Shown here: piece by piece, positions 20,546-24,352 of the stretch
How positions within the stretch are numbered: position 1 is the stretch's first letter
How the letters are laid out: each line of letters opens with the position of its first letter
Source: Ectobacillus panaciterrae DSM 19096
GTDB lineage: Bacteria > Bacillota > Bacilli > Bacillales > Bacillaceae_G
DNA: 38,390 bases
Assembly (NCBI RefSeq): GCF_000430785.1
Contig: NZ_AUMR01000055.1
Span: forward strand, 1 to 38,390
Reading direction: 5' to 3'
Program-made: the position numbers and the translations under genes
Notes under the pieces: model-generated
The model's database searches: none
What the model was told of the DNA's origin: nothing
Seen by the model: the letters and a program-made list of their open reading frames with translations, nothing else

Positions 20546-21211
20546 TTATTTTCCGTACTGCTTCATAATCTGAGCCAGCTCGTCTTCAACCTCTTTATTT
20601 TTGCTCAGATTTGCAAATTCCTCATCTAAGGACTTTTCTTTCTTGTATATTTCTCCGCTTGCTTCAGCTTCTGCTTCCAGCTGAAGGGCTTTGTCTTCCA
20701 TGCGCTTCAACCCGGCCATTGCTGTGTTGGAATCAAACCCAGCCATCGCTTTGTTGATGTTCTTTTGTGCTTTTGCCGCATTCACGCGCGCTACAAGCGT
20801 TTCACGTTTGTTCTTAAGTTCTGTCACTTGCTTGCGCATTTCCTCTAGTTTCGCACGTAAGTTATCAGCCGCTGCTTTATTTTGTTCATAGCTTGCTTTG
20901 TATTCGTTCACTTTTTGTTCTGCATTCTTCTTTTCTTCTAAAGCACGGCGTGCAAGATCAATATTTCCTGCTTGTACAGCCGTATGTGCTTGCTCTTCAC
21001 GCTTTGCCACAAGTGCGGCTTGCTCTTCATATAATGATTTGAATTTTTTCTCAAGTGCGATTTGCGCAGCTACGCTTTTCTCTGCTTCTTCTACGTCTTC
21101 CTGCATGTCGCGCAAATATTGATCCGTCATTTTAATCGGATCTTCAGCCTTTTCAATTAAAGCATACACATTGGACATAGTTAAATCGCGCAACCGTTTA
21201 AAAATGGACAT
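20546..21211 (-). CDS. pspA: PspA/IM30 family protein
   Basis: A 221-aa coiled-coil protein of the PspA/Vipp1/IM30 (bacterial ESCRT-III-like) family, which assembles on the cytoplasmic face of a stressed membrane and stabilises it. The N-terminal amphipathic helix is MSIFKRLRDLTMSNVYALIE. The long coiled coil (EDVEEAEKSVAAQIALEKKF through NKRETLVARVNAAKAQKNIN) and the C-terminal NTAMAGLKRMEDKALQLEAE are typical. ATG follows GGAGGAA. It heads the operon pspA-DUF350-DUF4178-DUF4247. A second PspA-like gene lies 1.9 kb upstream (23089-23748). Confidence 0.92.
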   Translation of the reverse strand: MSIFKRLRDLTMSNVYALIEKAEDPIKMTDQYLRDMQEDVEEAEKSVAAQIALEKKFKSLYEEQAALVAKREEQAHTAVQAGNIDLARRALEEKKNAEQKVNEYKASYEQNKAAADNLRAKLEEMRKQVTELKNKRETLVARVNAAKAQKNINKAMAGFDSNTAMAGLKRMEDKALQLEAEAEASGEIYKKEKSLDEEFANLSKNKEVEDELAQIMKQYGK

Positions 21212-21611: not shown

Positions 21612-21640
21612 TTGACGCACATGCACCCTAATGCTACAAT
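21612..21640 (+). promoter_or_regulatory. sigma-A promoter of the M-box/corA transcript
   Basis: TTGACG (21612-21617), 17-bp spacer, TACAAT (21635-21640). Transcription is expected to start near 21647, just before the riboswitch. Confidence 0.8.
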
Positions 21641-21654
21641 GAAAAAGAATTTAA

Positions 21655-21812
21655 TAGGTCTCTGTTAGGTGAGGCTCCTGTATAGAGAAACGCTGCTGCC
21701 CAAAAATGTCGAGAGACGCCAATGGGTCAACAAGAAGGATCGGATAGAAGGTCTTTTTTAACGTAGCTGGTTTGAAACCTATGCTGTACAGTGCTAAAGC
21801 TCGACGAGGGAG
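21655..21812 (+). promoter_or_regulatory. M-box (ykoK-type) magnesium riboswitch
   Basis: Conserved M-box blocks are present in order: GTTAGGTGAGGCTCCTGTAT, ACGCTGCTGCCCAAAAATGT, GAGAGACGCCAATGGGTCAA, a variable stem with GGTCTTTTTTAACGTAGCTG, then CCTATGCTGTACAGTGCTAA and AGCTCGACGAGG. This RNA folds around Mg2+. When Mg2+ is plentiful the downstream terminator forms and transporter transcription stops. The target here is corA, with a small ORF between. Confidence 0.93.
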
Positions 21813-21830
21813 AGGTGCGCTTGTAATTAT

Positions 21831-21908
21831 AAACTGCTCTGTAATAGGCAGTTTATTCTTCGTGGCTAGACATTAAAACCTTTACTCCTCGAAGAGTAAA
21901 GGTTTTTT
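21831..21908 (+). terminator. riboswitch expression platform: two hairpins
   Basis: AAACTGC/GGCAGTTT (21831-21854) is followed by ATTCTT. A stronger hairpin, AAAACCTTTACTC/GAGTAAAGGTTTT (21874-21905), ends in a T run. The second is the likely Mg2+-controlled terminator. Confidence 0.8.
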
Positions 21909-21930
21909 CATGAACAAAGGAGGTGAGAGC

Positions 21931-22038
21931 ATGGACCCTGATAATCCCCGCTCGTGCAAGTACACAATACAAAGCGAGGCTGCCCATTTCATGCTCCTCA
22001 CTATTTGGAACAAAAATGACGCAAATCGCCTCGCATAA
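21931..22038 (+). CDS. 35-aa leader ORF (MDPDNPRS...) between M-box and corA
   Basis: ATG lies 7 bases after the near-perfect ribosome site AAAGGAGGTG, so strong translation is expected. The product begins MDPDNPRSCKYTIQSEAAHF and ends NDANRLA. The Asp/Pro-rich start resembles MgtL (MDPEPTPLP...) of enterobacterial Mg2+ transporter leaders, where such peptides destabilise the ribosome when Mg2+ is low. The stop is 18 bases before corA. The ORF overlaps RNA hairpins that can hide the corA ribosome site. Regulatory function is inference; it could also be a short coupled gene. Confidence 0.6.
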   Translation: MDPDNPRSCKYTIQSEAAHFMLLTIWNKNDANRLA

Positions 22039-22048
22039 ACCAAAGAGG
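21974..22048 (+). promoter_or_regulatory. alternative hairpins controlling the corA ribosome site
   Basis: CCTC (21996-21999) plus TTTGG (22004-22008) can pair with CCAAAGAGG (22040-22048), which contains the corA Shine-Dalgarno, giving 9 bp with a 4-base bulge. An enclosing stem GCGAGGC (21974-21980)/GCCTCGC (22028-22034) is also possible. The 5' arms lie in the leader ORF, so ribosomes translating it would open them. Confidence 0.45.
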
Positions 22049-22056
22049 TGAACATT

Positions 22057-23028
22057 ATGATTAAAACATATTTATATAATGCAAAAGAACAAAAAATGGA
22101 GCAAAATATTTCATTAAGCAATATTCACTCCTGTTTATCCCATCCTGAAAACTTATTATGGATTGATTTATATGATATAAAAGCCGATGAGCTATATGAG
22201 ATTGCCAAAACATTCGGGTTTCACCCGCTCGCAATCGAGGATTGTCTGCATGACAGCCCAAGAGCCAAAATCGATGACTACGAGCTGTATAAATTTTTCG
22301 TCTTTCACGCTCTTCGATACAATGAAGAAAGCGATAACGAAATTACAACACTGGAATTAAACGTATTCCTTGGCCCTAATTATGTCGTCACCATTCATAA
22401 GCATAAACTGCGTTGGTTAGGACAAATGGACGCTATCTGTTCAGTAAGTGCGAAATATATGAACAGAGGCGCAGACTTTCTTTTGTACACATTAATTGAC
22501 GGGATAACCGATGAATATTTTCCAATACTTGACCGCATTGGCGTCCGGATTGATGAATTAGAAGACGAGATGTATGACGAAGGAGTAAAAGAAGTAACAG
22601 AAGAGTTCTTGGCTCTAAAACGAACCATTATCCTCATACGCCGCGTAATTTTACCGCAGCGAAGAATTTTTTTAACCATTAACAGCCGCTGGAAATTTGA
22701 TATTCAAGAAAGCAATATACCGTTCTACACGGATTTAATTGACCATATAGAACGAATAGTAGATTCTACTGAAACATACCGTGACTTGGTGAACAGTGCC
22801 TTAGAAACCTATTATTCTATTATTAGCGCAAAATCCAGCGAAAAATTAAATGTCTTAACTATCATCTCTACCATTATGCTTCCATTAACATTCGTCACCG
22901 GATTTTTTGGCATGAATGTTCCGTTGCCGTACCAGCACTCTCCCATCGCGACAGTCATCATCTTTGCCAGTCTGATTATACTGACATACGGCATGTGGAG
23001 ATATTTTAAAAAGAATGAACTATTATGA
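22057..23028 (+). CDS. corA: CorA-family magnesium transporter
   Basis: A pentameric Mg2+ channel/transporter subunit of the CorA (metal ion transporter, MIT) family. The 323 aa have a large cytosolic N-terminal domain (LLWIDLYDIKADELYEIAKT, HPLAIEDCLHDSPRAKIDDY), a long stalk helix (FLALKRTIILIRRVILPQRR) and two C-terminal membrane helices. The signature GMN is at about residues 285-287 (TGFFGMNVP). A GTG at 22048 is part of the ribosome site, so the ATG at 22057 after GAGGTG is the start. The gene is controlled by the M-box upstream and probably by the leader ORF, and ends at a strong shared terminator. Confidence 0.93.
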   Translation: MIKTYLYNAKEQKMEQNISLSNIHSCLSHPENLLWIDLYDIKADELYEIAKTFGFHPLAIEDCLHDSPRAKIDDYELYKFFVFHALRYNEESDNEITTLELNVFLGPNYVVTIHKHKLRWLGQMDAICSVSAKYMNRGADFLLYTLIDGITDEYFPILDRIGVRIDELEDEMYDEGVKEVTEEFLALKRTIILIRRVILPQRRIFLTINSRWKFDIQESNIPFYTDLIDHIERIVDSTETYRDLVNSALETYYSIISAKSSEKLNVLTIISTIMLPLTFVTGFFGMNVPLPYQHSPIATVIIFASLIILTYGMWRYFKKNELL

Positions 23029-23088: not shown

Positions 23089-23748
23089 TTACTTCGCTGC
23101 TTTTAGCTGTTCTAACTCCCTTTGTACCGTTTCTTGCAATTGCGTATCCAAGGATGCAAACTTTGCAGGGCTTGTAAGTTGATGGAAGTAGCTGCTTGCG
23201 GCTGCTTCTGCCTCTATCTTTTGAACGTATTCTTCTACTCTCGCAAACCCCTTTACAGCATTTTCAGTATGGAAGGAAGCCAAAACTGTTTGTCCTTCCT
23301 TAATGGCTCTTGCTGCATGTGCTCTTGATACTAATACAAGCTTTTTATACTGCAGTTCTTGATACTTTTCCCGCAGCTTATCAATTTGCTCGTACAGCAC
23401 GGCAGTCTGCTGCTTCGTGACCTCGTATTGCTCTCGATACATTTTGGCTTTTTCTTCATGAAGAATTTTTTCCTGCAAAGCCAGTTTCGCTATTTCATCC
23501 TCATTTTTAGAAACAGCAAGCTCTGCTTGCCGAGCGCGCTTTGCGACAACCGCTTCTGTCTCGATCACAAGAGTTTCGTATTTCTTCTCCAAATATAACT
23601 GATTTGCCAGCGCGTGCTGTGCTTTTTCTACCTGCTCTTCCATATCGCGAATATATTGATTCAGCATGCTCAAAGGTTTCTCCGCCTTGTCCAGTGCTTC
23701 ATGCACATCAGATAATACAATGTTTCTTACTCGTTTTAAAATACCCAT
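23089..23748 (-). CDS. PspA/LiaH-like membrane-stress protein
   Basis: 219 aa, second PspA/IM30 member in the window. The amphipathic start MGILKRVRNIVLSDVHEALD is followed by a long coiled coil (MEEQVEKAQHALANQLYLEK; EKYQELQYKKLVLVSRAHAA) and the family's FARVEEYVQKIEAEAAASSY near the end. The open frame reaches a start 13 codons earlier, but ATG 23748 has GGAGG 8 bases before it. That start lies one base after the stop of the membrane-protein gene upstream, so the two are translationally coupled, like liaI-liaH of Bacillus subtilis, which respond to cell-wall antibiotics. Confidence 0.88.
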   Translation of the reverse strand: MGILKRVRNIVLSDVHEALDKAEKPLSMLNQYIRDMEEQVEKAQHALANQLYLEKKYETLVIETEAVVAKRARQAELAVSKNEDEIAKLALQEKILHEEKAKMYREQYEVTKQQTAVLYEQIDKLREKYQELQYKKLVLVSRAHAARAIKEGQTVLASFHTENAVKGFARVEEYVQKIEAEAAASSYFHQLTSPAKFASLDTQLQETVQRELEQLKAAK

Positions 23749-23749
23749 A

Positions 23750-24352
23750 TTATTTGTCCTCCTTTGTAATGTTTCTTTCCCACTCATCTAAAATATCGGC
23801 ATTTCTGCTTACTCCCGCATGTACAGGAGACAGAAATGGCTCAACTGTAATATCTTCATTCATACGATTTTTCTTCCAAATTTTATACAGCCAGTAAATT
23901 GCTAAAGCAATTAAAATGAATGGCATGATTGGAAGAAGTGCCAAGAACATAAGGAATGTGCCTGTCCATTTTTTCCACGTGCTGCCGTCTGCACTTTTTC
24001 GTACGAACCAGCCGAGGATGAAAAGAACTAGCCCAAACAGGAACGGAATGAAACCAAATCCTCTATGCTCTCCTCTGTGGTGGAAGCGGTCAGGGCTGAA
24101 TCCTTGCTCAAAAGAATGCGGACCATTGCCTCTGCCTTGCATATGGAACTCGCCTTGTTGAAGAGCCTCAAATCTATTAGCCTCACCTCCCTTATTGAAA
24201 AACGCTTGATGATTCTGATGGATAGCAAAATTACTTCTGTGTCCCCATCCTCCAAAATCAGCTGTGCGAAGGCCAACAAACAGGATGATACTGAGAATTG
24301 GCAATAAGATGAACCATTTCCAAGCTTTGCGTGTTTTTTTCTTAGTTTCCAT
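23750..24352 (-). CDS. membrane protein coupled to the LiaH-like gene (LiaI-like by context)
   Basis: 200 aa. TM1 is at about 12-30 (WFILLPILSIILFVGLRTA). A Gly/His/Phe-rich extracytoplasmic loop of some 65 residues follows (HSFEQGFSPDRFHHRGEHRG). TM2 (GFIPFLFGLVLFILGWFV) and TM3 (FLMFLALLPIMPFILIALAI) follow, with an acidic cytoplasmic tail (NADILDEWERNITKEDK). Start ATG after GGAG. The family is not recognised by sequence; direct coupling to a PspA-like gene suggests it anchors that protein at the membrane, as LiaI does for LiaH. It is longer than LiaI (126 aa) and has a third helix. Confidence 0.65.
   Translation of the reverse strand: METKKKTRKAWKWFILLPILSIILFVGLRTADFGGWGHRSNFAIHQNHQAFFNKGGEANRFEALQQGEFHMQGRGNGPHSFEQGFSPDRFHHRGEHRGFGFIPFLFGLVLFILGWFVRKSADGSTWKKWTGTFLMFLALLPIMPFILIALAIYWLYKIWKKNRMNEDITVEPFLSPVHAGVSRNADILDEWERNITKEDK

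Follow-up and report, generated by a model that had tools for sequence, protein, structure and literature searches.

The closest described system to the one reported here is mgtQ, a leader open reading frame (ORF) in the mgtB intergenic region of Salmonella, in which Asp2 and Glu5 impede the translating ribosome and the mgtB Shine-Dalgarno (SD) sequence becomes free through alternative stems (PMC8092293). In E. coli, ribosomes translating the mgtA leader MgtL are lost at an EPDP stretch under low Mg2+ (PMC11282234), and corA is preceded by an Mg2+ dependent leader ORF, corL, whose expression is inversely related to that of corA (PMC11552253). Asp-Pro reporters stall ribosomes of Bacillus subtilis (PMC11381351), and the published corA RNA motif is limited to Gammaproteobacteria and metagenomes (PMC6429828). 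Here we describe a 35-codon leader ORF with an acidic and proline-rich (acid/Pro) start that lies between an M-box Mg2+ riboswitch and corA in Ectobacillus panaciterrae DSM 19096, on a stretch of 38,390 nucleotides (contig NZ_AUMR01000055.1, positions 1 to 38,390; hereafter the window). The M-box is usually described only as far as its terminator, through which, in the textbook view, it acts alone.

The leader starts at ATG 21931 behind the SD AAAGGAGGTGA, has its stop codon at 22036–22038 and leaves a gap of 18 bases to the corA ATG at 22057 (Table 1). With mgtQ it shares a short ORF, a strong SD, acidic codons (2 and 5 in mgtQ), translational action as predicted for it here, and alternative stems by which the SD of an Mg2+ transporter gene is either masked or exposed; mutually exclusive structures of this kind were found here in silico only. 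The short SD-led ORF with an acidic/Pro start before an Mg2+ transporter, which marks the MgtL and mgtQ type, is likewise present (EPDP in MgtL; PMC11282234, PMC11552253), but MgtL acts via Rho-dependent termination, whereas the present switch would bear on the SD. The E. coli corL–corA pair is also a case of a leader ORF before corA; CorL, however, is Rho dependent, starts with UUG and has fewer acid/Pro residues, and PMC11552253 makes no mention of an M-box. In Mycobacterium tuberculosis the pe20 M-box is followed by Rv1805A, a conserved small ORF whose N-terminal Pro is also conserved, but there the M-box controls the upstream ORF translationally, the peptide is assigned no role and the gene encodes neither CorA nor MgtE (PMC12810186). 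Members of the RF00380 M-box class share the upstream aptamer and terminator, whereas here a second element follows. We consider it fairly probable that Bacillota have a ribosome-based Mg2+ sensor of their own, in which acid/Pro leaders and a five-part switch (elements Z, A, B, C and D) stand before CorA and MgtE genes, combine freely with the M-box, so that many M-box genes would be checked twice, by RNA folding and afterwards by the translating ribosome, and arose independently of MgtL. Among the open-licence papers listed, none describes leaders with an acid/Pro start at corA or mgtE genes of Bacillota, which does not prove absence; the mycobacterial M-box ORF comes nearest.

Leaders of this type are found at corA loci across the phylum. 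CorA orthologs of 49–58% identity occurred in 27 further genomes among 398 in a phylum-wide search, and class-level searches returned orthologs in 32/63 and 44/113. We applied a fixed rule demanding an SD-led ORF of 12–60 codons that starts 55–175 nt before the gene, ends at most 40 nt inside it and encodes an acidic residue and then Pro within its first residues. After deduplication by the last 110 nt (122 upstreams to 112), 77 of the 112 unique corA upstreams contained such a leader; shuffled upstreams yielded 4.0 on average and never more than 8. Because relatives are not independent, our tallies of leaders are counts and not probabilities, and 77 is a lower bound, since the rule misses visible cases (L100, L141, L146, L150 and L155, of the MEESP kind; L094 and L096, with ATA or ATC starts; and L160, MEEPYRQ). 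All CorA-clade counts leave out L105, which lacks the CorA start, and L125, for which the upstream is 40 nt long; neither the orphan L068 nor L032, which duplicates L005, was tabulated. SD-led ORFs of any kind were common (101 of 112 upstreams, versus 60.1 in shuffles), so only the acid..P start carries weight; permuting residues gave 8.1 of 101 which, unlike the shuffles, is no clean null, the motif ORF having been preferred where a choice existed. None of 23 paralog CorA upstreams fitted the rule, and just 6 of them had any SD-led ORF. Distant leaders include the types MEPIP or MDPIP, MDDPYP, MEESP and MADPDP, among others. In L094 and L096, whose leaders read IDPIP, translation seemingly begins at ATA or ATC, which follow a good SD and may be weak start codons.

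The combination of M-box and acid/Pro leader recurs upstream of two unrelated Mg2+ transporters, CorA and MgtE, in many Gram-positive bacteria; the rule used assigned no gene to 5 of the 139 M-box loci. Among 310 control ORFs from the fetched loci 35 matched; by eye, 3 of these were other genes and 32 were CorA, MgtE or the NRAMP-like L294, a weak control in that Mg2+ transporters had not been removed beforehand. The M-boxes of L205, L216, L244, L249, L250, L253 and seven other loci precede an ABC-permease-like protein, mostly of 561–573 aa, with a median of 71 nt from aptamer to gene and no leader; the first 120 residues of one representative had no Pfam match.

Selection on the peptide was assessed by a blind pick, with loci chosen by taxon and ORFs by start codon, SD and position only. 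An acid..P start was found in 30 of 31 picks in the class of genome G562 (32 genomes matched, one without a usable upstream), in 10 of 10 picks in family f123 and at 18 of 25 loci of the order's clade, where the six loci that lack an ORF altogether belong to the Terribacillus kind. Among the 26 distinct starts of the class, codon 2 is acidic in 25 (Glu 19, Asp 6) and Pro stands at codon 3 in 24 and at codon 5 in 24; entropy at codons 2, 3 and 5 is 0.2–0.5 bits at positions 1 and 2 versus 1.1–1.95 at position 3, with Pro5 encoded by CCA (7), CCT (7), CCC (5) and CCG (5). Codons 2–4 and 6 of the f123 leaders are invariant at positions 1 and 2 and variable at position 3. The codon contrast is weaker in the order's clade (10 of 13 distinct starts have Asp4 and Pro6), and among the remainder are picks that miss the leader's start and the divergent G006; in a further codon table, with groups chosen by motif, zero entropies at positions 1 and 2 arise partly by construction. 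Codon-level conservation, which the sequence-only reading had proposed as a check, is seen in the blind pick, and judged from these codon patterns the acid/Pro codons are held at the peptide level.

The constancy of Pro would suit a proline attenuator, as reported for mgtP, in which the ribosome waits at Pro codons when charged tRNA-Pro is short. We regard this as improbable: the acidic residue is equally constant and persists where Pro is lost (MEESAYRR, MDDCHRRS, MDGCYRRS, MEDGHRRC, MEDAGCGD), the leaders stand before Mg2+ transporter genes, and the Pro codon of mgtQ is reported as not required (PMC8092293). Acidic starts without Pro occur at L137, L157, L161, L165, L170 and L172 (MEDAGCGD, MDDCHRRS, MEESAYRR and others), an observation that bears on the roles of acid versus Pro. 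The strong SD and widely kept ORF could also belong to a functional small protein, such as a regulator of the transporter, a very improbable account given that likeness is confined to the first ~6–8 residues. Past about codon 8 the peptides diverge in sequence, they vary in length (18 to 42 codons in Bacillales leaders), element B is read in different frames, and none of 10 leaders tried matched NCBIfam, nor did the window's peptide, entered without its Met, match Pfam. As regards kinship with MgtL or mgtQ, these 10 leaders gave no family match and the peptides are too short to decide descent; by analogy, the leader probably works like mgtQ without sharing its descent.

In the mechanism that we favour, low Mg2+ would hold ribosomes at codons 1–6 of the leader, and ribosomes held there would open the transporter SD; pausing and drop-off would lead to the same prediction provided that initiation is frequent. 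That the ribosome senses Mg2+ at this leader we infer by analogy. GCGAGGC (element A) and GCCTCGC at 22028–22034 (within element C), which the sequence-only reading had seen as a possible second stem, are both present, and the A:C pairing coevolves across leaders. In this test A and C were taken from position-only windows, their choice by folding being partly circular, and 23 of the 77 leaders were left out for too short a C window and 12 more as redundant. As the ribosome position changes, the modelled accessibility of the corA SD swings by 5.07 kcal/mol, compared with −0.55 on average (standard deviation 1.02, maximum 3.70) in 600 dinucleotide shuffles; because the swing exceeds all shuffles and the ORF start is conserved in relatives, the leader arrangement is beyond chance. 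The modelled SD switch is weaker once the whole leader is folded. The first stem proposed from the sequence alone, CCTC (21996–21999) and TTTGG (22004–22008) with the corA SD CCAAAGAGG (22040–22048), has all its parts in place, yet the model pairs B with the leader start, and we set this stem aside as the main switch; the interpretation given in the sequence-only reading is partly supported.

In many loci the modelled SD opens as the ribosome approaches the stop codon, and leader stop codons fall 5–63 nt upstream of corA or, where the two overlap, as far as 23 nt inside it, as would be expected of plain translational coupling, in which the ribosome ending the leader melts C:D, the same or a new ribosome translates corA and the acid/Pro start merely tunes the flow. 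We give this account a small probability, as coupling requires no A element, yet A:C coevolves, and the peptide-level retention of acid/Pro codons would go unexplained. Masking B with a ribosome opened the SD in part at some loci in the model, so a tunnel-type arrest peptide stalling late over B, thereby freeing A for C, might be envisaged; it is scarcely credible, however, with a variable distance from the conserved start to B and unconserved residues near B. The RNA elements and the leader ORF are retained in genome G230 (L068, 1514–1664), although corA ends there after eight codons.

By CorA, the closest named relative found is Ectobacillus antri (88%). Within the order, orthologs of 75–89% identity are patchy (15 of 397 genomes, the own genome included) and the remaining full-length CorA matches only about 20–35% identical; a single-protein contig scan with CorA reached just relatives of at least 75% (14 loci). 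A strongly initiated ORF lies at the same place in Ectobacillus, Fictibacillus, Domibacillus, Bacillus sp. PAMC26568 and Priestia (P. megaterium plasmid included), mostly starting M[GD][TAP]D[DGNS]P; the exceptions are V replacing M in G003, VSSDDP in G402 and MSVGDSVPIP in G006. Judged by sequence and not by Rfam, no M-box precedes the leaders of Priestia and F. macauensis, and both M-box and leader are missing from the Terribacillus loci and Virgibacillus sp. 7505. At the corA genes of these last two (L037, L038, L040–L042, L044) a promoter-like stretch overlaps TAGTGACTATAG, as if they were protein-regulated. A motif search for the Bacillales start gave 23 matches in 397 genomes: 12 leaders before corA, one without corA (L068) and 10 in unrelated places, some within coding sequence. 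Plasmid pPmC-129-3 of P. megaterium (L085, 36601–40569) carries the leader–corA cassette without an M-box. The patchiness of this CorA clade, its greater nearness to distant genomes of the phylum (49–58%) than to other Bacillales CorA (about 30%), and the plasmid copy suggest horizontal transfer.

The order of promoter, M-box, terminator, ORF, 18-base gap and corA given by the sequence-only reading was accurate by RF00380, fold, PF01544 and coordinates. The M-box, the sole RF00380 match detected in the genome, lies far above the covariance model's gathering score of 44, and an intrinsic terminator is predicted by hairpin folding between aptamer and gene, as is characteristic of the class; a pattern scan of the region did not pick up this hairpin. 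The promoter match alone is little proof, with two promoter-like sites in the region against a shuffle mean of 5.2. PspA-like coiled-coil genes, recognised by look only, lie on both sides of corA on the minus strand (20546–21211 and 23089–23787).

Table 1. Features of the corA locus, in positions of the window.
Feature	Position	Strand	Basis
Sigma-A type promoter TTGACG-17-TACAAT, TG 5′ of −10	21612..21640	+	Consensus match only
M-box (ykoK) Mg2+ riboswitch aptamer	21654..21818	+	RF00380, 138.4 bits, E 2.4e-31
Intrinsic terminator hairpin and T run, 3′ of M-box	21875..21906	+	Fold −15.7 kcal/mol, z −5.43
Leader ORF MDPDNPRSCKYTIQSEAAHFMLLTIWNKNDANRLA, 35 codons, acid/Pro codons 2–6	21931..22038	+	ORF list; start conserved in relatives
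Element A, codons 15–17, anti-sequestrator pairing with C	21974..21980	+	Folding; coevolution
Element B, pairs with Z, places A in loop	21988..22007	+	Folding; coevolution
Element C, partner of A (SD free) or of D (SD hidden)	22026..22034	+	Folding; coevolution
Element D, corA SD GAGGTGA	22045..22051	+	Sequence; modelling
corA	22057..23028	+	Pfam PF01544, 220.3 bits; orthologs

If the leader works in the way proposed, a hidden second stage, with the ribosome as the Mg2+ sensor, underlies much of the control exerted by M-boxes in Bacillota. Enterobacterial leaders are known to destabilise ribosomes through acid/Pro nascent chains, and this sensing principle would then be in use in another phylum as well, perhaps independently.
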